Positions 7,768 through 63,588 of a stretch of DNA of 64,000 nucleotides are shown piece by piece. The position numbers and the translations under genes were made by a program. Source of the stretch: Candidatus Calescibacterium sp. (GTDB taxonomy: Bacteria > Calescibacteriota > Calescibacteriia > Calescibacteriales > Calescibacteriaceae); contig JANXBU010000009.1 in assembly GCA_025060505.1 (NCBI GenBank), positions 15,319 through 79,318 of the forward strand. Direction: 5' to 3'. The notes under the pieces are model-generated. The model was given only the letters and a program-made list of their open reading frames with translations. It was not told the DNA's origin and made no database searches. Within the stretch, counting starts at the first letter, position 1, and each line of letters starts with the position of its first letter.

Positions 7768-9681
7768 ATGACAGAAAAAGATATAGCGAAAATTCGGAAG
7801 TTTGCCAGATTCGTCTTTCCCTTTGATTTTCCAAGAAAAGAAGAACAGGTAGATGTCACAGAGAAACAAGAAATGAGAATATCTGACATAGTGAACTTAG
7901 CTGACAACCAGACCAAAAGAGTAATACTTTATTCGCTTTATCTACTCGATTTCCTCTCTCTTATTTATGAAAGCGGAGATTTCCTTTCACTTGATGACCA
8001 GAGAACTCAGAGATTGATAACAAGACTATCAAACTCCCCAAGCAAGATTCAATACAATGTTTTCAGAATACTGCGTTTTATATCACTTCTTTCATTCTGG
8101 GATGCATTCGGCAATGAAAAAGTTGGATTCAATGTTAGTCCATCCAACAAAATTCCAAAGATCGAACTCTCTGATCTTGAAAAAATAGAAGAGAAAAAAC
8201 CCGGATTTACTGGAATTGAATGGGATATAGAAAGAATAAGATTCGGTAAATATGTGAGAGGAGATATAAGAATAGTTTCAGATGTCATAATAGTAGGTTC
8301 AGGCATAACAGCTTCTTTAATAGCAGAGAGATTATCAAGAGAAGATATATCAGTTTCTGTACTGGAAAAAGGTTATTTTCTTGATGCAGAAAATGTATCT
8401 GGATACTTGGAGATGGGAACAACATTCGGGGGAGTTCTGCCAGTTCTATCATCAGCTAACACAAACATGGTATTGAGCAGAGGTGTTGGTGGTTCAACAA
8501 ACATCTATTTTTCACTTTTCGAAAAAATAAGAGATGACGCAAAGGAAATCTGGAGAAAATTTCATGGAGTTAACACAAAAGATATGTTTCTTGATAGTGC
8601 AACAGAAGAAATATCCAAAATAATAAATTCAAGGGCTGTAAATTCAAACAATTCAGAAGCTCCAGAAATTCTCGTAAGAATATCAGAAGCCCTGAAAACT
8701 GAAGTTAAAAAATTCACAAAACTTGAAGGTCGCAAATCTAATCTACTGACATCAGATAAAGTTCTTTCTTCCGAAGTTATGCTCAGATATGCTGTCCACT
8801 TTGGAGCAAACATATACACTGGTTTTGAAGTTGAAAAAATAGCAAGAAGCAGTAGAAAATGGTTCTGCGAAGGATCTGTAAAAGATGAGTTTGGGAACAT
8901 AAAAGGTAGATTCATAGCTGAAGCAAAAGCTGTATTTCTGTGCGCCGGACCTTATGGAAATTTCAAAATACTTTCAAACTCTGGATTCAAAGAAAATATG
9001 CTTGGAAAAAAGCTCAAAATTCATCCCGCTGGTATAATTACCGCGTACTTTAACTCAGTTCAGGAAAAAATAAACAATCCATATTACATAGAGTTTGAAG
9101 ATATATTTCTGATGGAGATAAAATTTTCTCCTGCAATCTCTGGATCTTTTATATCTGACAGTGCAAGAGATGATCTTGTGAAAAGATCAAAGATGTATCC
9201 ATTTGCAAGAACTTTTGTGTTTTGGTTCAGAGAAACTGGAAACTCACAATTTACGAAAAATCCACTTGGAGCATTTCCAAGACTATTCCTCTCCGGAGAA
9301 GACATATCAAAATTTCTGTTCGCTGCAAAAGAGGTATCACTTGCTTTGATACTTTCCGGAGCAAGAGAAGTAATATTACCTATAAGATCTGTTCCTTCTG
9401 TTTCTTCTGTTGATGATCTTGATAAACTTGATATAGAAAATGTGAAGCCAAAGCAACTAGAAATAATTTCTCTGTATCAAACAGGAGGATGTCCAATCAG
9501 TTTCTCCTCAAAATACGGAATAGTTGATTCAATAGGTAGAGTCTTCGGAGAGAAAACTCTTTTTATAAGCGATACGAGCGTTATGCCAGATTCTTCACTT
9601 GTTCCACCGCTACTTACAGCATCTGCTCTGAGCTACATATCTGTTGAATCTTTTTTGGAAAGGATCAAATATGTAAAATAA
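7768..9681 (+). CDS. Divergent GMC-type FAD oxidoreductase lacking the catalytic His motif
   Basis: A 637-residue paralogue of the protein at 42773-44650. An N-terminal helical region (about 1-165; gluconate-dehydrogenase-subunit-3-like in position) precedes the FAD-binding Rossmann motif VIIVGSGITASLIAERL (about 175) with the trailing acidic residue in VLEKG. GVGGSTN (the GGxxN/S FAD motif) and a C-terminal FISDTSVMPDSS equivalent to the family's VVDGSVVPTS are present. The family signature HPxGTCRMG is replaced by YQTGGCPIS, so the usual catalytic His is absent, as is the Cys-rich VCTFGCPT loop of its paralogue. It probably binds FAD but has altered or no alcohol-dehydrogenase activity. The transporter gene follows after 35 bases. 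Confidence 0.7.
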   Translation: MTEKDIAKIRKFARFVFPFDFPRKEEQVDVTEKQEMRISDIVNLADNQTKRVILYSLYLLDFLSLIYESGDFLSLDDQRTQRLITRLSNSPSKIQYNVFRILRFISLLSFWDAFGNEKVGFNVSPSNKIPKIELSDLEKIEEKKPGFTGIEWDIERIRFGKYVRGDIRIVSDVIIVGSGITASLIAERLSREDISVSVLEKGYFLDAENVSGYLEMGTTFGGVLPVLSSANTNMVLSRGVGGSTNIYFSLFEKIRDDAKEIWRKFHGVNTKDMFLDSATEEISKIINSRAVNSNNSEAPEILVRISEALKTEVKKFTKLEGRKSNLLTSDKVLSSEVMLRYAVHFGANIYTGFEVEKIARSSRKWFCEGSVKDEFGNIKGRFIAEAKAVFLCAGPYGNFKILSNSGFKENMLGKKLKIHPAGIITAYFNSVQEKINNPYYIEFEDIFLMEIKFSPAISGSFISDSARDDLVKRSKMYPFARTFVFWFRETGNSQFTKNPLGAFPRLFLSGEDISKFLFAAKEVSLALILSGAREVILPIRSVPSVSSVDDLDKLDIENVKPKQLEIISLYQTGGCPISFSSKYGIVDSIGRVFGEKTLFISDTSVMPDSSLVPPLLTASALSYISVESFLERIKYVK

Positions 9682-9716
9682 AATAAATAAAAATCATCAG
9701 GAAATACTGTTCTCCA

Positions 9717-10940
9717 ATGGAAGAAAAAAAGATAATCTTGATTATAATTTTCTCGTTAACTTATTTGGGCTTGGCTTTTGGCTCAATCCCCGGACTGCTC
9801 ATAGATAGAGCTGGAATATCTTTGATAGGCTCTGCTCTTATAATACTGTTTGGAATTATGACAACGCATGAGGCTCTTGAACACATCGACATATCTACAA
9901 TACTTCTGCTCTATGGTCTTATGGTTCTTTCCGCACAACTGAGAATAGGTGGATTCTACACCAAAGTCGCCTTACTCATAATGAAAAACATCAAATCTCC
10001 AAAAATACTTCTGCTTCAGATTATGATAGCTTCAGCACTACTTTCTGCTATTTTAGCAAACGATATAGTATGCCTTGCCTTCACCCCTGTTGTTGCATAC
10101 TCAACACTCAAAAGCGGAATAAATCCTATACCTTTTCTCATAGCTCTCGCTGTATCAAGCAATATAGGTTCAGCATCAACAATAGTCGGAAATCCACAAA
10201 ACATGTTCATAGGACAGTTTGCAAAACTTGATTTTCTTAGCTTCATACTTTGGTGCTCCCCTCCCTCAGTTCTTTCTCTCTTGGCATCTTACCTTATAAT
10301 ACTTACTATATTCAGAAAAAAATGGACTCTACCAGCTGATAAAATACAGATACCTGAAAAAATTTGGGATGAATTCAACAAGCATCACTCCATAAAAGGT
10401 TTAATATTTGTTGTCATTACAATATTACTCTTTTTCACACCAATCCCAAGAGAAATAATAGCAACAACAGCAGCTTCTTTGCTCATGATAAGCAGATATA
10501 TAAGCACAAGAAAACTCCTCGAACTAGTTGATTGGTCTCTCATAATTTTATTCATATGCTTATTTATAATAGTCGGTGCTATCTCAAAGTATCAGATACC
10601 TCAAGATATACTCTCAGTGTTGGAGAAATACGGATTAAACATAAATGATCCGCTACATCTTTCACTCACAACTGTTATAATAAGCAACATCTTCAGCAAT
10701 GTTCCAGCAGTAATGCTTCTTATAAACACGCTTGATAAAACTACAGAAAACTACTACATTCTTGCTGTTTCAAGTACATTTGCTGGAAATCTTCTTACAA
10801 TCGGTAGCATAGCAAATCTCATTGTAATTGAGCAGGCAAAAAATTTTGGGGTAAAAATAACTTTTCTGGAATATGCCAAAACAGGGATACCCGTGACATT
10901 GGTTTCAATAGTTCTGTTACTTATTTGGATCAGAATCTAA
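9717..10940 (+). CDS. ArsB/CitM-type (ion transporter superfamily) membrane transporter
   Basis: The 407-residue protein has about 10-11 hydrophobic segments. Its N-half repeat carries ILANDIVCLAFTPVVAY and SNIGSASTIVGNPQN, the paired re-entrant motifs of ArsB/NhaD/CitM/SLC13-like carriers; the C-half repeat has SNIFSNVPAVMLL and AGNLLTIGSIANL. These internal twofold motifs (a Thr/Ser-Asn-Pro-Gln-Asn turn) define the superfamily. Substrate (arsenite, carboxylate, sulfate or Na+) cannot be decided; no arsenic gene is nearby. ATG 9717 lies 35 bases after the GMC-like gene, probably the same operon. Confidence 0.8.
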   Translation: MEEKKIILIIIFSLTYLGLAFGSIPGLLIDRAGISLIGSALIILFGIMTTHEALEHIDISTILLLYGLMVLSAQLRIGGFYTKVALLIMKNIKSPKILLLQIMIASALLSAILANDIVCLAFTPVVAYSTLKSGINPIPFLIALAVSSNIGSASTIVGNPQNMFIGQFAKLDFLSFILWCSPPSVLSLLASYLIILTIFRKKWTLPADKIQIPEKIWDEFNKHHSIKGLIFVVITILLFFTPIPREIIATTAASLLMISRYISTRKLLELVDWSLIILFICLFIIVGAISKYQIPQDILSVLEKYGLNINDPLHLSLTTVIISNIFSNVPAVMLLINTLDKTTENYYILAVSSTFAGNLLTIGSIANLIVIEQAKNFGVKITFLEYAKTGIPVTLVSIVLLLIWIRI

Positions 10941-54366: not shown

Positions 54367-56247
54367 TCAACATCTGAATTCATGTGGAAAGTTTTTAAGG
54401 GCGGTCAGGAGCGGCACAGGAGCTGCTTGCCCCAGACCGCATAAACTTGCGTATGTGACGGTATCAGCTATCTCCTGAATTTTTACATCAAGATTTTTGT
54501 GCTTGTGTATTAGATCTTCCAGCATCTCTGTAAGTTTTGATGTTCCGACTCTGCAAGGAACACACTGTCCACAGCTTTCATCGGCAAAAAATTTCATCAG
54601 ATCTCTGACAAGAGCTGGAACCGATATAGACTCTGCTATTGCAAATATCGCACCAGAACCAAGCATTGCTCCCGCATTCTGAATATCTTCGTAAGTATAA
54701 AAAATCTCCAGGGCTGAATTATCTACAACTCCGCCGGAAGGACCTCCTAGAAGAAATCCTTTATTGGATTCACGAAAACCCAAACCGTAGATTTCAATTA
54801 TATCTTTTATCTTCAAACCGTAAGGAACCTCTACCGAGCATGGGTTATTTACGTTTCCACTCAGAGAAATCATCTTTGTTCCGATTGATTTACCTTTGCC
54901 GTATTTTGCAAACTCACCTGAACCATACAGAAGCACATAAGGGAGATTGGCAAATGTCTCAACATTGTTTATAAGGGTTGGTTTTCCAAAGAGTCCAACT
55001 TGGAACGGAAACGGTGGTCTGTTTCTTGGGATAGCCCTTTTCCCTTCTATAACTTCTAACATCGCTGTTTCTTCACCGGCAACGTAGGAACTTGGAGATC
55101 TTCTTACCTCAATGTCAAAGTGAAAATCGCTCAAGATTTCTCCAAGAAAACCTTTCTGTTTTGCTTGTTCGATCGCGTTTTTGAGACGATCTATTGCTTC
55201 TTTCGCTTTACAGTTTACGAATATGTATCCCTTTGAAGCTCCGACAACGTACGCTGAAATAGTCATACCCTCCACTATGGCAAACGGATTTGATTCAGCT
55301 AAATTAACATTACAAAAAGAAGCAACCTCTCCTTCTTCAAGATTAGCAACAACATATTTCTGAGCCGAAACTTGTTCAGATACACCTTTGAGTTTTATAT
55401 ACATCGGAAAAGCGGCTCCACCTTTGCCCCTTATTCCAGCATCCTTTACGGCATTGATTATGTCTGCTTTTTTCATACTAAAAGCCCTCTTTAGACCCTC
55501 ATAACCTCCCACAGAAATATATGTATCAATATTCAGAGGATCTACAACATCGTTGTACTTTGTTATTATCTTTCCATCTCTCCTGTATTCATAAGAATTT
55601 AGTTTATCTACAAGAGCTGGATTCTTTTTTATTTGATCTACCAGAGATTGATTTACTGAAAGAACCTTTCCGTTGATCATAACAACAGGAGCTAATCCAC
55701 AAAATCCAAGACATCCACAGTTTTCAATGTCAAAGTAATCTTCATCATAGTGGATTTTGTGATGAAAACAGTTTCCAGCTATGCACCTTTTTACCTTGAT
55801 TTTTTCAAAGTTTGAATAAACTTTAAATCTGCTGTTTGATCCAGAACCTTGTTGTTTCATATTGTTTTCAGAGTTCTTGGAATCAGATTTTTGCAAATGT
55901 GAATTTATTTTGTCTAACGAAGCTTTGAGGATAAAATCATCTCCTTTCTTTACAACAGGAGACTGTGCACACTTTTTGAAGCAGTAGGATGTTTTGATGT
56001 TGTAGCCGTTTCTTTTGAGCTCCTCGTACAGAGCTTTTGAGCCCTTCTCAACACAGGAAGTTCCAAAGCAAACATATATGACGTCTTTCTGATTTTGCTG
56101 GCTGAATTCTTTGTAAAATGATATAACTGAATAGATCTGATTTCTATGGATTTTCAACTTATTGGAAAGCTCAATGAAGTCCGAGTCTTCTATTTGACCT
56201 TTTCGTTCAATTATGTCAAATAGCTCCTCTATTAAACTTGTTTGCAT
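54367..56247 (-). CDS. HoxE-HoxF fusion: diaphorase subunit of a bidirectional NiFe hydrogenase
   Basis: The 626-residue protein joins parts that are usually separate. Residues 1-55 are the NuoE/HoxE helical bundle (VISFYKEF). Residues 56-100 form a thioredoxin-like [2Fe-2S] domain with C60, C65, C89 and C93 (CFGTSC, CFKKC). A Ser/Asn/Gln linker leads to a second such domain (150-190; CIAGNC, CGCLGFCGLAP). From about 215 it is NuoF/HoxF: GIRGKGGAAFP (NADH/FMN), YVVANLEEGEVASF, YVAGEETAMLEVIEGKRAIP (shortened: GEETAMLE), then SCGQCVPCRVG and TYASLCGLG for the [4Fe-4S] cluster. It oxidises or reduces NAD(P)H in the cytosol. Last gene of the hydrogenase operon, 48 bases after hypE. Confidence 0.87.
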   Translation of the reverse strand: MQTSLIEELFDIIERKGQIEDSDFIELSNKLKIHRNQIYSVISFYKEFSQQNQKDVIYVCFGTSCVEKGSKALYEELKRNGYNIKTSYCFKKCAQSPVVKKGDDFILKASLDKINSHLQKSDSKNSENNMKQQGSGSNSRFKVYSNFEKIKVKRCIAGNCFHHKIHYDEDYFDIENCGCLGFCGLAPVVMINGKVLSVNQSLVDQIKKNPALVDKLNSYEYRRDGKIITKYNDVVDPLNIDTYISVGGYEGLKRAFSMKKADIINAVKDAGIRGKGGAAFPMYIKLKGVSEQVSAQKYVVANLEEGEVASFCNVNLAESNPFAIVEGMTISAYVVGASKGYIFVNCKAKEAIDRLKNAIEQAKQKGFLGEILSDFHFDIEVRRSPSSYVAGEETAMLEVIEGKRAIPRNRPPFPFQVGLFGKPTLINNVETFANLPYVLLYGSGEFAKYGKGKSIGTKMISLSGNVNNPCSVEVPYGLKIKDIIEIYGLGFRESNKGFLLGGPSGGVVDNSALEIFYTYEDIQNAGAMLGSGAIFAIAESISVPALVRDLMKFFADESCGQCVPCRVGTSKLTEMLEDLIHKHKNLDVKIQEIADTVTYASLCGLGQAAPVPLLTALKNFPHEFRC

Positions 56248-56295
56248 TATACTGTTCTATTAAAGATAGAATTTGTTGTTAAGGAATCTTATATT

Positions 56296-57300
56296 TCAGC
56301 ATATACGAGGAAGTATGTCTCCTTTCAGGCTTTCAAGAACTCGCCTTGTTCCAATTCTCGTCAAAAGATATACTTTTGCTACGTTTGTGCTTTTGACTTT
56401 TCCTATAACAGTCGCGTCTTTTCCAAGAGGATGCGATCTTAGATATTCAAGAACCTTCTCGGCTTGACTCTTTCCAACAACCAAAACAGCTCTTCCCTCG
56501 CATGCTGAATATATCGGATCTATTCCGAGAACCTCGGATGCATTTCTCACCCACTCTTTCATGGGTAAATCTTGCTCATATACCTCTATTTCAACCCCGT
56601 ATTTGCTACATATTTCGTTCAGTAGAGTAGCAACTCCCCCGCGTGTTGCATCCCTCACGAACTTGATCTGGTCAAATCTATCCAGAGCTCCGAGTATAAG
56701 GTCAGTCAGATTGCTGAGATCTGATTTGACTTCATCATCTGTCTGAACACCTAATCTTTCAAGCATGATATAAAGCCCGTGCTCACCTATTCCGCCAGTA
56801 ACTATTATCAGATCATTCGGTTCTATTTTTCTGTTTCTCCAATCTCTGTGTTTCTCAATTACACCAATGCCTGCTGTGTTTATAAATATTTTGTCTGCTT
56901 TGTTCTTTTCTACAACCTTTGTGTCTCCAGTTATAACTTTGACTCCTGATTCATTACATGCCTGCGAAATCGAAGCAAGAATTCTCCTGAGATCAGCTAC
57001 AGGGAATCCTTCTTCAATGATGAAGCTAAGAGATAAAAAAAGAGGTTTTGCTCCAACTACACAAAGGTCGTTCAGAGTTCCAAAAACAGAAAGTCTTCCT
57101 ATATCACCATTCTTGAAGAATATGGGACTTATGACATATGAGTCTGTGGTCAGAGCAAGCCTTTCCGAGAGTTCAAAAACACCTGAATCAAGAAGCTCAT
57201 TGAGTATAGGATTTGAAAGATATTTGATGAAATCCTTTTCGATCAGGTTCCTCATTGCATCGCCGCCGCTTCCGTGTGCCATAAGTATTATATCCTGCAT
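56296..57300 (-). CDS. hypE: Hydrogenase maturation factor HypE
   Basis: HypE dehydrates a carbamoyl group, received from HypF, to a thiocyanate on its own C-terminal Cys and hands CN to the active-site Fe on HypCD. The 334-residue PurM-like ATPase has MAHGSGGDAMRNLI, TDSYVISPIFF, VITGDTKVVEK, GGIGEHGLYI and RDATRGGVATLLNE, and ends precisely in the required PRIC, so the functional Cys is present. GAAGGAGGG precedes its ATG. It is 92 bases after hypD. Confidence 0.95.
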   Translation of the reverse strand: MQDIILMAHGSGGDAMRNLIEKDFIKYLSNPILNELLDSGVFELSERLALTTDSYVISPIFFKNGDIGRLSVFGTLNDLCVVGAKPLFLSLSFIIEEGFPVADLRRILASISQACNESGVKVITGDTKVVEKNKADKIFINTAGIGVIEKHRDWRNRKIEPNDLIIVTGGIGEHGLYIMLERLGVQTDDEVKSDLSNLTDLILGALDRFDQIKFVRDATRGGVATLLNEICSKYGVEIEVYEQDLPMKEWVRNASEVLGIDPIYSACEGRAVLVVGKSQAEKVLEYLRSHPLGKDATVIGKVKSTNVAKVYLLTRIGTRRVLESLKGDILPRIC

Positions 57301-57392
57301 AAATTCCCTCCTTCTTAACTTCTGTTTTATTCCTTAATCTTTATAAATACTTCTGATCTCTGAAACCTTTCTTTGCAGGAAAAAACGCCAGT

Positions 57393-58496
57393 TCAGGAGT
57401 TTTCATAAAGATAGTATGCTGCGCATGTTCCCTCGGAAGATACCATACACGGACCTTTCGGATTTGTTGGAGTGCAAACTTTGGCAAAGAGCGGACACTC
57501 ATAAGGTTTCAGCACACCTCGCAGAACCTCACCACACCTGCAAGCGGTTTTTCTCACCTTCACAGGTTCATCAAGAGCAAATTTCTTTCTTGCATCAAGA
57601 TGTGAGTACTTGGGTTTGAGTTCAAGACCACTTTTGGGAATAACGCCAAGTCCTCTCCAAACTGAATCTGAAACATCAAAAACCTCATCTACAAGATTCT
57701 GAGCGAAGACATTTCCCTCAGAAGAAACGCTTCTTGTGTATGTGCTGAAAACACCGTATTCTCCGTTTTTTATTTTTTTCATAAGAAAGTAAATCCCGTA
57801 GAGTACATCTTCTGGTTCGAATCCCATGATAACAAAAGGTATCTTGTAGTTTTTGAGGTATTCTTGCCATCTTTTTATTCCAACGATGGTGGAAACATGT
57901 CCCGGCCCGATTATCCCGTCTAATTTTATTTCTCCCGCATCAAGTAGAGCTTTCATGGCCGGCGGTGTTAGCTTGTGCAGAGAAAGATAAAAGAGATTCT
58001 CAACCCCGAGTTCAACAATCTTTTTGATTGTGTAAGCGAGAGACGGTACGGTTGTTTCAAAACCAATACCTACCATAACATAGTTCTTTTGTGGATTTTG
58101 AAGAGCAATCCTTATAGATTCAAGAGGACTGTACACAACTTTTACTTCTTTTCCTTTTGCACGCAGATGGTTTAAACTTCCGTTGCTACCTGGAACATTC
58201 ACAAGATCACCAAAAGTTATAACACCAAGATCATATTTTTCTGCTATACCTATCAGATAGTCTATATCTTCATCTGCTGTAACGCAGACAGGACAACCCG
58301 GACCGGATTTGAGCTCAAGATTCTTTGGCAGAATACTTCTTATACCATATCTTGATATTTCACGAGTGTGGGTTCCACAGAATTCCATTATCACATACTC
58401 TCCGTCTTTTGCAAGATCATGTATTTTCTGAACAATAACCTGAATTTCTTCTGGTCCTAACTTTGTAAGATTTTTTATGTAGGATAAATTACTCAT
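57393..58496 (-). CDS. hypD: Hydrogenase maturation factor HypD
   Basis: Start chosen at ATG 58496 (MSNLSYIKNL), which follows GGGAGGTG and overlaps the hypC stop by 8 bases; a longer frame to 58526 is unlikely. HypD carries a [4Fe-4S] cluster and the Fe(CN)2CO unit. Motifs: MEFCGTHTREISRYGIRSIL, SGPGCPVCVT, GFETTVPSLAY, GPGHVSTIVG, MGFEPEDVL and the C-terminal cluster Cys in ACRCGEVLRG, CPLFAKVCTP and GPCMVSSEGTCAAYY. Full family length (367 aa). Confidence 0.96.
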   Translation of the reverse strand: MSNLSYIKNLTKLGPEEIQVIVQKIHDLAKDGEYVIMEFCGTHTREISRYGIRSILPKNLELKSGPGCPVCVTADEDIDYLIGIAEKYDLGVITFGDLVNVPGSNGSLNHLRAKGKEVKVVYSPLESIRIALQNPQKNYVMVGIGFETTVPSLAYTIKKIVELGVENLFYLSLHKLTPPAMKALLDAGEIKLDGIIGPGHVSTIVGIKRWQEYLKNYKIPFVIMGFEPEDVLYGIYFLMKKIKNGEYGVFSTYTRSVSSEGNVFAQNLVDEVFDVSDSVWRGLGVIPKSGLELKPKYSHLDARKKFALDEPVKVRKTACRCGEVLRGVLKPYECPLFAKVCTPTNPKGPCMVSSEGTCAAYYLYENS

Positions 58497-58713
58497 TGAT
58501 TTGCACCTCCCTTCTGATTGATTCAAGGAGAAATTCCGCTTCCTTTTCTGAAAGAATTGAGATGGAGAATCCAGCGTGAACTATTACATAATCACCTTCT
58601 TTTGCTTCCGGAGTCAGAGCAGTGCATATTTCAAGCTTACTTTTTCCCATGTCAACTACTGCGGTTTCGTTATCTTTTTTCTGTATTATCTTCATAGGTA
58701 CACCGAGACACAT
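58489..58713 (-). CDS. hypC: Hydrogenase maturation chaperone HypC
   Basis: The 74-residue protein starts MCLGVPMKI, keeping the essential Cys2 that binds the Fe(CN)2CO unit and the large-subunit precursor. GDYVIVHAGFSISIL matches the family barrel. Its start shares a base with the hypF stop (TAATG), and GGAGGTG lies upstream, so it is translationally coupled. hypC also overlaps hypD. Confidence 0.96.
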   Translation of the reverse strand: MCLGVPMKIIQKKDNETAVVDMGKSKLEICTALTPEAKEGDYVIVHAGFSISILSEKEAEFLLESIRREVQINE

Positions 58714-60644
58714 TATACTTTCACCTCCTCCAGAGCTCCGTTGAGCTGTCCCAAAGCAATTCCACTGTCGTTTGGCGGAACATTCCTATGAAAATATATA
58801 TCAAAATCCCTGAACTTCTTCAGTATCGTGTAGCAGAGAATTTTGTTCTGAAAGACGCCTCCGGAAAATCCAACTTTGTTTATGTTATGTTTATCTCTTA
58901 GGATCAGAGCTACCCTGTAGATAGACTCCACAATTGTGTTGTGGAACATACGAGCCAAATCTGAGTAGTCATTTTTATCTCTGAGCTCAATGATTGCCCT
59001 GAATGTCTCAAGCATATCTATGTATATCATTGAGCCGTTTTGATGGTGAATCTCAAAGGGTAGATATTTTTCTGTTTCCGATTTTGTCGCCAGATTTTCA
59101 AGTTCAATAGCTGCCTGACCAGAAAAGGCTATCTTATGATCTTCCTTGATTTTCAGTAAAACAGCAGCAATATCAAAAAGTCGTCCGACAGAAGATGTGT
59201 AAAAAACATTTGTTTCTGTGCTTATCTGTTTCATAACTATGTCTTTTTGCAATTTGTTGACCTGCTTGAAAAGGTCTATTTTTTCTGGGAGATACTTTGA
59301 AACATAGGAAAGTGCGATAAAAACTGGGTTTTCAATAGCGGAATCTCCTGCAACAATGGGTATGTACTTGAAGTGCGCAACTCTTCTGAGATCAAGAAAA
59401 TCTCCTATGAAGACCTCTCCTCCCCATATCTTTCCATCCTCACCGTATCCTGTTCCATCAAACGAAAAGCCTATGATCTTACCATCTATTTTTCTATCTA
59501 AAATCAGAGAGTATATGTGTGCTTTGTGATGTTGTATTTGTTTGAGCGGAACACCTTTTTGTTCTGCGAGCTTTTTAGCAAGCTTCGTTGAAAGGTAATA
59601 CGGATGAAGATCACAGACGACAACTTCGTAGTCAGCCATACGAACTAGATCATCCACGAGTTTCTCGTATGCTCCATATACGTGTGCGTTCAGAAGATGC
59701 CCCAATCTTGTTGATAGGAATATCTTTTTGTTCTTTGAGATACACACTGAGCTTTCAAGCTCAGGCCCAAGACATATACAGTCTCTGAATTTGTAGTTGG
59801 ATTCAAAAAAATTTCCGACTCTTCCTAAACCTCTTCTCGTTGGAACTCCAAGATCGTTGTAGACCACAGAGAAATCCTGTATGTTTTTGAACTCAAGATT
59901 GTTCAGAAAAATTTTCACATAACTTGAAAATTTCTCTAAAACTTCCTGATCTGATGTATATGGACTTTCCGAAGATATATTCACACTGGAAAAAACCAAA
60001 GGGAAATCAATAAAGCTGAAAATAAGAACGAAGAAAGGATCGTTTGCAAAAGAAACACCCAGATAATTTCCCTGAGCTATGTTAGAAGCTAATTTTGATT
60101 TTGTGTATCTTATTACGCTTATATCAAATGAGACCGGATTGTTTATATATTCGTTTGTATCAACAAATTTTCTGAGCATATCGGGATTCTTGAACATAAC
60201 AGGGAGAGGTTTGAATGTTTTCTTCACTTTTCTCAGGTAATCAACACTTTTTTCGTTTGTAGCATCACAGAGAAAATAGAACATACTGGAAGTTTTGAGT
60301 ATGATGACCTGGCCTCCTGAAAGAAGCTCTGAAATGTAAGAAAAAATATCATAGTAGTTAGAGTATTTTTCCGTGTTCATTTTCGGACCACATTTTGGGC
60401 AAGAGATAAAAGCGTATCTATACCTTCTTGGGATCAATTCGTTGTTGTACTGAATTTCACATTCGCTACATATCTTGAAAAACGGCTTTGCATCTGTGTA
60501 TCCAGTTGAGTAAAAAGAACCACAGTTATTACATCCTATGAACGGATAAAAATATCTTCTGGAAGATTTGTCAAAAAGTTCCTTCAAGCAATCTGTACAT
60601 ATTGGTCTGTCGTAATTTGGATTCACTGGTACTAAACCCTTCAC
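58713..60644 (-). CDS. hypF: Carbamoyltransferase HypF lacking the acylphosphatase domain
   Basis: HypF makes carbamoyl-adenylate and transfers the carbamoyl to HypE. This 643-residue version starts (GTG 60644) directly at the zinc-finger region: four CxxC pairs at C16/19, C38/41, C59/62 and C82/85. A YrdC-like domain (about 95-270; CDATNEKSVDYLRK, KPLPVMF) and a Kae1-like domain follow (HHKAHIYSL, GFSFDGTGYGEDGKIWGGE, YTSSVGRLFDIAAVLL, GFSGGVFQNKIL). The usual N-terminal acylphosphatase domain of about 90 residues, with its VQGVGFR motif, is missing; an in-frame stop lies shortly upstream. Parts of the YrdC domain also differ (KTSSMFYF for the usual KGLGGFHL). It starts 448 bases after the protease gene. 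Confidence 0.9.
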   Translation of the reverse strand: MKGLVPVNPNYDRPICTDCLKELFDKSSRRYFYPFIGCNNCGSFYSTGYTDAKPFFKICSECEIQYNNELIPRRYRYAFISCPKCGPKMNTEKYSNYYDIFSYISELLSGGQVIILKTSSMFYFLCDATNEKSVDYLRKVKKTFKPLPVMFKNPDMLRKFVDTNEYINNPVSFDISVIRYTKSKLASNIAQGNYLGVSFANDPFFVLIFSFIDFPLVFSSVNISSESPYTSDQEVLEKFSSYVKIFLNNLEFKNIQDFSVVYNDLGVPTRRGLGRVGNFFESNYKFRDCICLGPELESSVCISKNKKIFLSTRLGHLLNAHVYGAYEKLVDDLVRMADYEVVVCDLHPYYLSTKLAKKLAEQKGVPLKQIQHHKAHIYSLILDRKIDGKIIGFSFDGTGYGEDGKIWGGEVFIGDFLDLRRVAHFKYIPIVAGDSAIENPVFIALSYVSKYLPEKIDLFKQVNKLQKDIVMKQISTETNVFYTSSVGRLFDIAAVLLKIKEDHKIAFSGQAAIELENLATKSETEKYLPFEIHHQNGSMIYIDMLETFRAIIELRDKNDYSDLARMFHNTIVESIYRVALILRDKHNINKVGFSGGVFQNKILCYTILKKFRDFDIYFHRNVPPNDSGIALGQLNGALEEVKV

Positions 60645-61092
60645 ATATAATTTATTTTCGTTTTATTAATTTAAAAAATAGGACGAAAAAACTGCGTTAG
60701 TTCTTCAAAATCATCCTCAATAATTTTTTCTCTATTCAGTAAAGAAAATAATAGCAAGTAGATTTAATAAGCTTGGGCAATTTTATCGTTTCAATCTCTT
60801 GACAGCTGAGTATAGAATCCTTAAGAATAACTTTTTCTGCTGCAAACATCTGTAATTCGTAAAAGTATAAACGGGAATAAAGGTTCATTATTGTATCTCA
60901 AGAAAACTCTGATAGCAAAACCGCCGAGAGTTTTTGAATTTCCTTGAATCAGCGTAGCCGAATTTTTGATAATGCACATAAGAGTAAGAACAATTCCCTG
61001 ATTCCTATTCTTCATCAATCCTCAGTTCTGGTAAAAATCTGAATGAAATGATTGATAAAGAGTAGAACTGAAATGAACAAGAAAATCTGGCT
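60645..61092. other. 448-base gap inside the hydrogenase operon
   Basis: It separates the protease gene from hypF. A minus-strand frame at 60821-61018 (65 codons, starting MMKNRNQGIVLTLMCIIKN) resembles nothing I know. No acylphosphatase motif was found in any minus frame, so the missing HypF domain is not simply frameshifted here. A promoter for hypF could lie in this gap. Confidence 0.45.
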
Positions 61093-61542
61093 TTATAATC
61101 TTGCCAGAAGGTCTTTGAGTAGTTCATAAGCTCTTTTCAGGTTTCTTTCAGCTTCCTGAGATATCTGATTCCCGTAGTCAAAATCATATCCTCTTATTTC
61201 AATCAGAAATCCAACGAGCTTCGGGTTGTACATAGCCTTTGCGAATGAGAATATATCTTTGCAAGAAATACCATGAGATAGAGCCCCGCTGACTGATTTC
61301 TCAGAAAGCTCGTAAATAACGCACTCATCAGCAGAAGTTGATGCATCTACAAATATTACAACATCGTACTGTGCTATTTTTTCGGCGATCTGTATATCGG
61401 GGAAATCAAGGCAGAGCTTATCAAGATTTTTATTATCAAACCTTCTGACAAATTCTGGTCCCAGAGCGTCATCTTTTCTGAGCTCATTTCCAACTCCAAC
61501 AAGTAATATCTTTTTTTTATCCATGAGAAAATTCAAGCTCAC
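61093..61542 (-). CDS. Hydrogenase maturation protease (HoxW/HycI family)
   Basis: This endopeptidase trims the C-terminus of the large subunit after nickel insertion. The 149-residue product (GTG start; ATG at 61524 gives 143) has GVGNELRKDDALGPEF, with the nickel-sensing Glu and Asp, VIFVDAST with the second Asp, and LSHGISCKDI with the His ligand. The stop of hoxH lies about 50 bases before its start. Confidence 0.9.
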   Translation of the reverse strand: MSLNFLMDKKKILLVGVGNELRKDDALGPEFVRRFDNKNLDKLCLDFPDIQIAEKIAQYDVVIFVDASTSADECVIYELSEKSVSGALSHGISCKDIFSFAKAMYNPKLVGFLIEIRGYDFDYGNQISQEAERNLKRAYELLKDLLARL

Positions 61543-61590
61543 AGCTACAGCACAAATTTTATAACAAGAATCGTCTATAAGACAAGTTCT

Positions 61591-63039
61591 TTACTGAAAT
61601 TCTCTTGTTATTGTGTTTATGAGATTTTTTCTGTGATCGTATATTTGAATTATCATCGGCATCTTTCCTACTGCGTGAGTTGAGCAAGAAAGACATGGGT
61701 CATAACATCTTATACCTCCTTCGATGAGGTTGAGAGATTCTTCCTTAACATTTTTTGGGTCAAGGAATTTTTTAGCTATCATCTCAACGGCTTTTGACAT
61801 TGCCCAGCTGTTGTGTCCAGAAGCTACAATAAAGTTGCTTTTGAGGATTGTGCCTTTTTCATCAACCCAGTAGTGATGAATCAAAGTTCCTCGCGGTGCC
61901 TCTATTACTCCTATTCCCTCCTCTTTCTCCACCTTTCCTTTGACAAATACCTCCTTGCTTAGGATTTGGCTATCGGCAAGTATCTCCTTTACTCTTTCCA
62001 AGCAGTGTATAACTTCTATCATTCTCGCATAGTGGTAGTAAAAAGAAGGATGTATGGGTTTGTAGTTGTTGATCTGCCTGAAATATCTGAGTTCATCAGA
62101 GGCTTTTTCTGTTGGCATGTTCTTGCAAACGTTTAATCTTGAAAGCGGTCCGACTCTATATACTCCTTTTGGGTATCCGAGATTCTGGAGAAAAGGAAAC
62201 TTGAGATAGCTCCAATCTTCTATAAATTCCTTTATATATTTATGGTATTCTGTTTGGTCAAATTCAAGAATCGTGCTTCCGTTGTGGTCTATGACTTTGA
62301 GCTTTCCATCATAGACTTCCCAGTCTTCGTTTTCGTTCACCATGCTGAGGAAGTTAGTTTGGAAATTTGCATATTCCTCAACGAATGTTTTGTTTTTGTC
62401 TATGTAGTCCTTTATGTATTTGAGTCCATCCTGAGCGTATGAGATCATTTGGTCTACCTGATAAAGTAGTTCGTCTCTATACTTTGGATTGAGTGGTGCA
62501 GACATTCCTCCGGCTATGATATTTTTTGGATTTATACGAGCTCCTGAGATATACTCTATGATTGTTTGGCCGAATTTTCTGAGCTTTACTCCTTTTATGG
62601 CGAAGTCTGGATACTTTTGAACCAAACCTGATATGTTTCTGATAGATGGTTCTGCACCCCATCCTAAAAGTAGATCGGGAGCAGCGAGATAAAAGAAATG
62701 CAAAGAATGCGACTGAATTATCTGCCCGAGATGAACAAGAGTTCTGAGGAGTTTTGCTGTGTATGGTATCTGAACATTTATTATCATATCACCAGCTTTG
62801 GCAGCACCGAGTATGTGACTGATCGGACAAATACCGCATATCTTCGCTGTTATTATAGGAGCTTCTTCAAAATACCTACCTTCTATGAACTTTTCAAAGC
62901 CTCTGAACTGATCTACATGAAACAGAACTTTTTCTATTTCGTTTTTCTGATCAAGGTGAATAGTTATCTTTGCATGTCCCTCTATTCTTGTGACAGGATA
63001 TATTGTTATTTTGCTATCTGTTGTTTTTCCGTTCTGCAT
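61591..63039 (-). CDS. hoxH: NiFe hydrogenase large subunit (HoxH type)
   Basis: Holds the NiFe centre. The L1 motif is RIEGHAKI plus KICGICPISH with the first Cys pair; the L2 motif is DPCLSCSTHAVGKMP with the second pair. About 25 residues follow the His cleavage site, to be removed by the protease. The DPCLSCxTHAxG form is that of group 3 (NAD(P)-linked, cytosolic) enzymes. 482 residues, standard for HoxH. Starts 12 bases after hoxY. Confidence 0.94.
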   Translation of the reverse strand: MQNGKTTDSKITIYPVTRIEGHAKITIHLDQKNEIEKVLFHVDQFRGFEKFIEGRYFEEAPIITAKICGICPISHILGAAKAGDMIINVQIPYTAKLLRTLVHLGQIIQSHSLHFFYLAAPDLLLGWGAEPSIRNISGLVQKYPDFAIKGVKLRKFGQTIIEYISGARINPKNIIAGGMSAPLNPKYRDELLYQVDQMISYAQDGLKYIKDYIDKNKTFVEEYANFQTNFLSMVNENEDWEVYDGKLKVIDHNGSTILEFDQTEYHKYIKEFIEDWSYLKFPFLQNLGYPKGVYRVGPLSRLNVCKNMPTEKASDELRYFRQINNYKPIHPSFYYHYARMIEVIHCLERVKEILADSQILSKEVFVKGKVEKEEGIGVIEAPRGTLIHHYWVDEKGTILKSNFIVASGHNSWAMSKAVEMIAKKFLDPKNVKEESLNLIEGGIRCYDPCLSCSTHAVGKMPMIIQIYDHRKNLINTITREFQ

Positions 63040-63051
63040 GTTTCAGTAGAT

Positions 63052-63588
63052 CTATTCGTAGGAAAGCAATTTTCCTTTTAGTTCTGGTTGTTTATCTTCA
63101 AGCAATTTAGATAGAACCTCATATATAGCATCTGCTGATGGAGGACAGCCTGGAATATAGTAATCTACTTTCACAACTTCATCAACAGGTTTGACCTTTT
63201 CAAGGAGCTTGCTTATATCCTCGGAGCTTGGTATGTTTTTGTTGTAGTTGGTTTCAGCATCAGAATATGCTCTTTTGAGTACTTCTTCGGTAGAATATTT
63301 GTTTCTCATTGTGGGCACTCCGCCGAAAACAGCACAGTCTCCTATTGCGACAATGACTTTGCACCTTTCTCTCATCATCTTGACTTCTTTTTCTTGTGTG
63401 TCAGTAGCAACAGAGCCTTCTATTATTCCGATATCAACTTGTTCGCTCGGTGTTTTAAGATCTGTAAAAGGACTTGCATCAAAAACCAAACCTTTTTGTA
63501 TCAGATCAACAAGTCTTTCATCCATATCTAACATAGACATATGACAGCCTGAACAACCTTCACACCATATAGTTGCAACTCTTTTCAT
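63052..63588 (-). CDS. hoxY: NiFe hydrogenase small subunit (HoxY type)
   Basis: Carries the proximal [4Fe-4S] cluster: WCEGCSGCHMSMLDMDERL at the N-terminus, AIGDCAVFGGVPTM and the C-terminal PGCPPSADAIY. The MLDMDERL sequence is characteristic of HoxY. At 178 residues it has no signal peptide and no medial or distal cluster domain, as expected for a cytosolic group 3 enzyme. It is the first gene of the operon; TAATAT with an extended TGc lies 6 bases before ATG and there is no Shine-Dalgarno. Confidence 0.94.
   Translation of the reverse strand: MKRVATIWCEGCSGCHMSMLDMDERLVDLIQKGLVFDASPFTDLKTPSEQVDIGIIEGSVATDTQEKEVKMMRERCKVIVAIGDCAVFGGVPTMRNKYSTEEVLKRAYSDAETNYNKNIPSSEDISKLLEKVKPVDEVVKVDYYIPGCPPSADAIYEVLSKLLEDKQPELKGKLLSYE

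Follow-up and report, generated by a model that had tools for sequence, protein, structure and literature searches.

In the window (the whole 64,000-nucleotide stretch of Candidatus Calescibacterium sp. DNA analysed here), hypF encodes what is, judged by its sequence, a genuine HypF whose acylphosphatase (ACP) domain has been secondarily lost. This short HypF is probably supplied with carbamate by another route. HypF starts the synthesis of the hydrogenase cyanide groups, and its ACP domain splits carbamoyl phosphate (CP).

The hydrogenase cluster and the hypF gene

The gene belongs to a [NiFe]-hydrogenase cluster on the minus strand at the end of the window, in the order small subunit, large subunit, protease, gap, hypF, hypC, hypD, hypE and a NuoE-NuoF fusion:

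63052..63588, minus strand: [NiFe]-hydrogenase small subunit
61591..63039, minus strand: [NiFe]-hydrogenase large subunit, with CGICP and DPCLSCSTH motifs and a C-terminal tail
61093..61542, minus strand: hydrogenase maturation protease (TIGR00072)
60645..61092, minus strand: 448-base gap 5' of hypF, without an ACP remnant in any frame
58713..60644, minus strand: hypF without ACP domain, 643 aa, GTG start
58489..58713, minus strand: hypC, whose ATG shares the final base of the hypF stop codon
57393..58496, minus strand: hypD
56296..57300, minus strand: hypE (TIGR02124, 413 bits, cut-off 252), with the canonical PRIC acceptor end
54367..56247, minus strand: NuoE-NuoF-like fusion (diaphorase-type subunit); the relative G093, described below, has the same neighbour

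HypC, HypD, HypE, the protease and the hydrogenase that accompany the short HypF are intact at the level of sequence. PRIC forms the C-terminus of HypE in the window and at four loci of the related family f90 (see below), and DPCLSCSTH and the C-terminal tail are kept in the hydrogenase large subunits of the loci compared.

Pfam identified two zf-HYPF fingers, Sua5_yciO_yrdC (107-261), HypF_C (288-382) and HypF_C_2 (392-633) in the window HypF and no acylphosphatase domain. The layout is thus two zinc fingers (~15-87), a divergent YrdC domain (~103-275) and an intact Kae1-like domain (288-634), with the first zinc finger forming the N-terminal start of the protein. The zinc fingers were matched by PF07503 in two stretches, and 8/8 Cys are kept. 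TIGR00143 (NCBIfam hypF) aligned at model positions 97-737 of 741, leaving the first 96 unmatched, and the score of 395 bits was below the equivalog cut-off of 466 bits. The open frame comprises 649 codons and is bounded, six codons 5' of the GTG, by two adjacent in-frame stops. A first-pass annotation had described a HypF without ACP that begins at the first zinc finger, with an in-frame stop just upstream, and the domain searches, the ACP profile described below and the reading frame all agree with it. No second HypF was found in the window genome (draft assembly, 115 contigs, 86% complete).

Search for an upstream acylphosphatase domain

An HMM of the ACP domain, trained on 45 canonical HypFs, was run on all six frames, with stops read through or not. 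Nothing significant was detected in the 448-base gap or elsewhere in the window, in keeping with the earlier observation that the gap holds no acylphosphatase motif; as positive controls, a canonical HypF reached 115.9 bits and the free ACP of the cell 58.8 bits. Extension of the HypF frame upstream with stops read through yielded no ACP. A hidden or frameshifted ACP 5' of hypF was excluded by the negative six-frame search. That an assembly or frameshift artefact conceals the domain is scarcely credible: the assembly is a draft of many contigs, but no frame holds an ACP and the identical start in independent genomes refutes the idea.

Relatives of the short HypF and origin of the operon

HypF proteins were searched in a sample of 98 genomes and in a larger sample of 385 genomes. 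The closest HypF among the 98 was that of G093 (JAUQQQ01, a Tibetan MAG), which is 61% identical and has the same zinc-finger start. An unrelated phylum includes several species with ACP-less HypFs 50-62% identical to that of the window, which argues against an assembly artefact. These species form family f90 (G093 and G098-G102), with an SSU 76.5% identical to that of the window organism. Further f90 HypFs of the same architecture are complete in G099, G100 and G101, cut short in G102 and broken in G098, and no ACP was found at the hypF locus of any f90 member; this is the comparison with HypF of relatives that the first-pass annotation had proposed. All other HypFs spanning the zinc finger to the end in the 385-genome sample, among the matches listed, have an open frame of at least 736 aa. 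Trees were built as FastTree topologies with IQ-TREE branch lengths. In the Kae1 tree the short-HypF clade adjoins the ACP-bearing HypFs of G081, G229, G358 and G171 with support 1.0, and since the clade is nested among ACP-bearing HypFs, the ACP-less state is derived and the domain was lost.

Scanning of ten neighbours near hypF in the relatives (NuoG-like, ParA-like, AAA ATPase, kinase, ZnuA-like and TIM-barrel proteins) revealed no hyp-linked ACP or carbamoyl-supplying gene. Between hypC and hypD of two f90 genomes there are AAA ATPase/DUF3226 genes, apparently in broken pieces (L239, 12140-13309; L240, 10439-11802). With E. coli queries, HypA and HypB had no match in the G093 assembly, though HypC, HypD, HypE and HypF are present.

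Between the window and G093, the operon proteins are 60-78% identical (protease, 48%), against 25-56% for other window genes with a G093 counterpart. Neither HypD nor HypF was found in the four other members of the window's family, which are all the sampled members of its phylum. Because the cross-phylum identity is far above that of the other genes and HypD and HypF are absent from genomes of the same family, the simplest reading is that the window organism probably acquired the operon (54367-63588) laterally from an f90-like donor.

Divergence of the YrdC domain

YrdC is the carbamoyl-adenylate domain of HypF, and Kae1 is the transfer domain. Columns with 95% or higher conservation among canonical HypFs were taken as near-invariant. 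The window HypF keeps 15/35 of these in YrdC, 22/30 in the zinc-finger region and 35/38 in Kae1. Between pairs of canonical HypFs YrdC is the more conserved domain (44-56% identity, against 30-55% for Kae1), whereas the short-HypF clade shares only 23-28% YrdC identity with canonical HypF at equal Kae1 identity; the first-pass description of this YrdC as atypical was therefore accurate. On one topology, the stem of the clade measures 1.41 substitutions per site in YrdC and 0.41 in Kae1, and the clade's branches make up 14.6% of the total tree for YrdC and 5.7% for Kae1, so that YrdC of the clade evolves ~2.5-fold too fast. The KGxGG loop has become KTS[SN][MI] in most clade members, and the KxR motif has become K-[KR]-T, one residue shorter, while SxN is kept. 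YrdC contacts were assessed solely from conservation together with the KxR...SxN motif as published; H205, R250, D258 and R273 are replaced, and K141 and R270/R271 are kept. In Kae1, the HxxH and Asp ligands of the site are kept.

Between two close clade members dN/dS was 0.26 in YrdC and 0.12 in Kae1. A value of 0.26 marks YrdC as constrained, hence by this measure the domain is under purifying selection, less strict than that on Kae1, and not in neutral decay. An AlphaFold model built with 8 sequences reached a pLDDT of only 69 and superposes on whole HypF at large rmsd; in this low-confidence model (pLDDT 69) the YrdC region still appears to fold and matches TsaC at ~2.5-3 Å.

A dead HypF was one option of the first-pass annotation; the enzyme would be dead or decaying, and the hydrogenase left unmatured or served by another system. 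One domain is indeed lost and constraint is relaxed in a second. The option is nevertheless very unlikely, as the protein is kept across two phyla as the sole HypF found, its Kae1 is intact, dN/dS is below 0.3, and the HypE PRIC and hydrogenase motifs are intact.

The main rival explanation, itself unlikely, is that YrdC is non-catalytic and that Kae1 alone works on carbamoyl-AMP, or another activated carbamoyl, from another protein. The loss of most near-invariant YrdC residues and the altered KxR beside an intact Kae1 would fit, and a precedent exists in HypF1 of Cupriavidus necator, which has a single domain out of three (PMC9100943). Carbamoyl-AMP from elsewhere has been proposed for HypF1 (PMC9100943); the HypF1 strain also has a fuller HypF2, and a test of HypF1 in E. 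coli showed no activity (PMC5350229). Against a non-catalytic domain, every member retains YrdC in frame, purifying selection acts on it, SxN, K141 and R270/R271 are retained, and the search for an extra YrdC protein as a carbamoyl-AMP source found the TsaC/Sua5-type one only.

Carbamoyl phosphate metabolism and the free acylphosphatase

The first-pass annotation had listed a stand-alone acylphosphatase among its options and proposed a genome search for one. A free-standing ACP is present in the window genome, not adjacent to the hyp genes, and in 5/6 f90 genomes. It looks like a housekeeping protein because it also occurs in relatives of the window organism that have no HypF.

In a domain search whose controls were positive in 14/14 genomes, neither the large-subunit domain of CP synthetase nor the domain of aspartate/ornithine transcarbamoylases was found in any of the 6 f90 genomes, whereas both were present in 5/5 genomes of the window's family; the window organism has a CP synthetase and two transcarbamoylases. 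G103 and three canonical sister genomes have the transcarbamoylase domain as well. The f90 genomes are incomplete MAGs with stated completeness of 71-90%; if independence is assumed, incompleteness alone would produce six misses with a calculated probability of the order of 1e-5 per family. The G093 assembly (1.59 Mb, rebuilt from pieces) has no orthologue of E. coli CarA, CarB, PyrB or ArgI and, on the weaker basis of single E. coli queries, no match to PyrC, PyrD, PyrE, PyrF or carbamate kinase. The family f90, home of most short-HypF clade members, thus appears to have no recognised CP source, the ornithine-transcarbamoylase route included, and these absences, together with the unmatched PyrC-F of G093, suggest pyrimidine and arginine auxotrophy. 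An FdrA-type oxamate carbamoyltransferase was also sought in G093 and rejected, the match to fdrA (E=4e-7) being unconvincing and presumably a succinyl-CoA-ligase-type protein.

The cell's free ACP could hydrolyse CP in trans and pass carbamate to the short HypF, dividing the classic pathway between two polypeptides. The ACP genes just described and the CP synthetase of the window genome speak for such a division. The occurrence of the free ACP in HypF-less relatives and away from the hyp genes speaks against it, as does the want of a recognised CP source in f90; carbamate is labile and normally tunnelled within HypF (PMC12134894), and the altered YrdC would be left unexplained. We consider this arrangement improbable.

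Source of the carbamoyl group

The explanation that we favour, tentatively and with somewhat less than even confidence, is that the short HypF still carbamoylates HypE, that the CP-hydrolysing front end has become dispensable, that the carbamoyl group would arrive by another route, and that the operon was later acquired laterally. It draws on the domain loss, the intact Kae1 transfer site and HypE acceptor, the conserved operon, purifying selection and the co-occurrence with missing CP metabolism. On this explanation CP hydrolysis would be bypassed, and carbamate (from CO2 and ammonia) or another donor would enter the zinc-finger/YrdC module directly from outside, with the YrdC pocket reshaped to match. 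Such a route would have evolved in a lineage without CP metabolism, before lateral transfer of the operon to the window's organism. A bolder form, possible but more doubtful, is that [NiFe]-hydrogenase obtains its cyanide ligands independently of CP, through an ACP-less HypF that takes carbamate or another donor and that evolved in a bacterial lineage after the loss of CP metabolism. Among the structures listed is TsaC2 with N-carboxy-threonine, a YrdC enzyme acting on carbamate from bicarbonate and amine, and since YrdC enzymes can use carbamate so formed, direct-carbamate chemistry is not far-fetched.

Several points count against our favoured explanation: the window's own organism has CP available, the MAGs compared are incomplete, free ACP is common in f90, and the altered YrdC, including KxR, may adenylate nothing. 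The first-pass suggestion of another carbamoyl source has gained weight because f90, the family best represented in the clade, is without CP synthetase and transcarbamoylases.

Comparison with known systems

Canonical HypF, the carbamoyl-HypE ligase (PDB 3vth/3vti, 4g9i; TIGR00143), has the same zinc finger-YrdC-Kae1 order, hypCDE operon and Kae1 site; the window HypF differs in the absence of ACP, in a YrdC missing most near-invariant residues and in scoring under the TIGR00143 cut-off. An ACP-less HypF as such already has a precedent in HypF1 of C. necator, likewise a truncated HypF without the CP-hydrolysing front end (PMC9100943), but the window HypF retains the zinc fingers and YrdC. Kae1-only HypF-like frames of 352-424 aa, which resemble HypF1, were noted in G337, G206, G294, G044, G039 and G072. 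In Sulfurovum, a 671-aa protein that shares the zinc-finger region of HypF is encoded immediately 5' of a canonical-length HypF (L044, 3696-5708; L045, 5723-7735; L050 and L051, 5693-7705).

The class III O-carbamoyltransferases TobZ and GdmN perform the same YrdC and Kae1 carbamoyl transfer without ACP (PMC9633730, PMC9654439), but with Kae1 before YrdC, no zinc fingers and small-molecule acceptors, whereas YrdC precedes Kae1 in the window HypF. By analogy, the YrdC site of the short HypF might itself take CP and ATP. Class III enzymes use CP with YrdC and Kae1 only (PMC9633730), a listed E. coli HypF structure with ATP and CP has a 657-residue chain that starts shortly ahead of the zinc fingers, and L047 offers an ACP-less HypF with canonical YrdC motifs. 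The presence of CP in the window's own organism keeps this route open there. The window YrdC is, however, degraded at positions that canonical HypF keeps, and f90 is without a CP source; direct use of CP is rated a little lower than hydrolysis by the free ACP, as distinctly improbable. The L047 protein (7869-10064), from Bacillota, probably represents an independent ACP loss and may take CP by YrdC itself, as in TobZ/GdmN; its canonical YrdC shows that ACP can be lost without a change in YrdC.

Both CN ligands are taken to derive metabolically from CP (PMC12134894), a view that finds support even in archaea lacking CP synthetase (PMC13260591). Thermococcales such as T. kodakarensis likewise have a [NiFe]-hydrogenase without CP synthetase; in T. 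kodakarensis, however, ornithine transcarbamoylase makes the CP needed for hydrogenase (PMC13260591), whereas f90 has no transcarbamoylase match. A literature search, with subscription papers largely outside it, found no sole-copy zinc finger-YrdC-Kae1 HypF with a reshaped YrdC that is kept in two phyla, one of them without CP metabolism. A clade with a sole ACP-less HypF, mostly in genomes where neither CP synthetase nor transcarbamoylase is detectable, offers a natural test of the CP-source rule and also of the separate contributions of the ACP and YrdC domains, and in the f90 lineage cyanide may come from a non-CP source.
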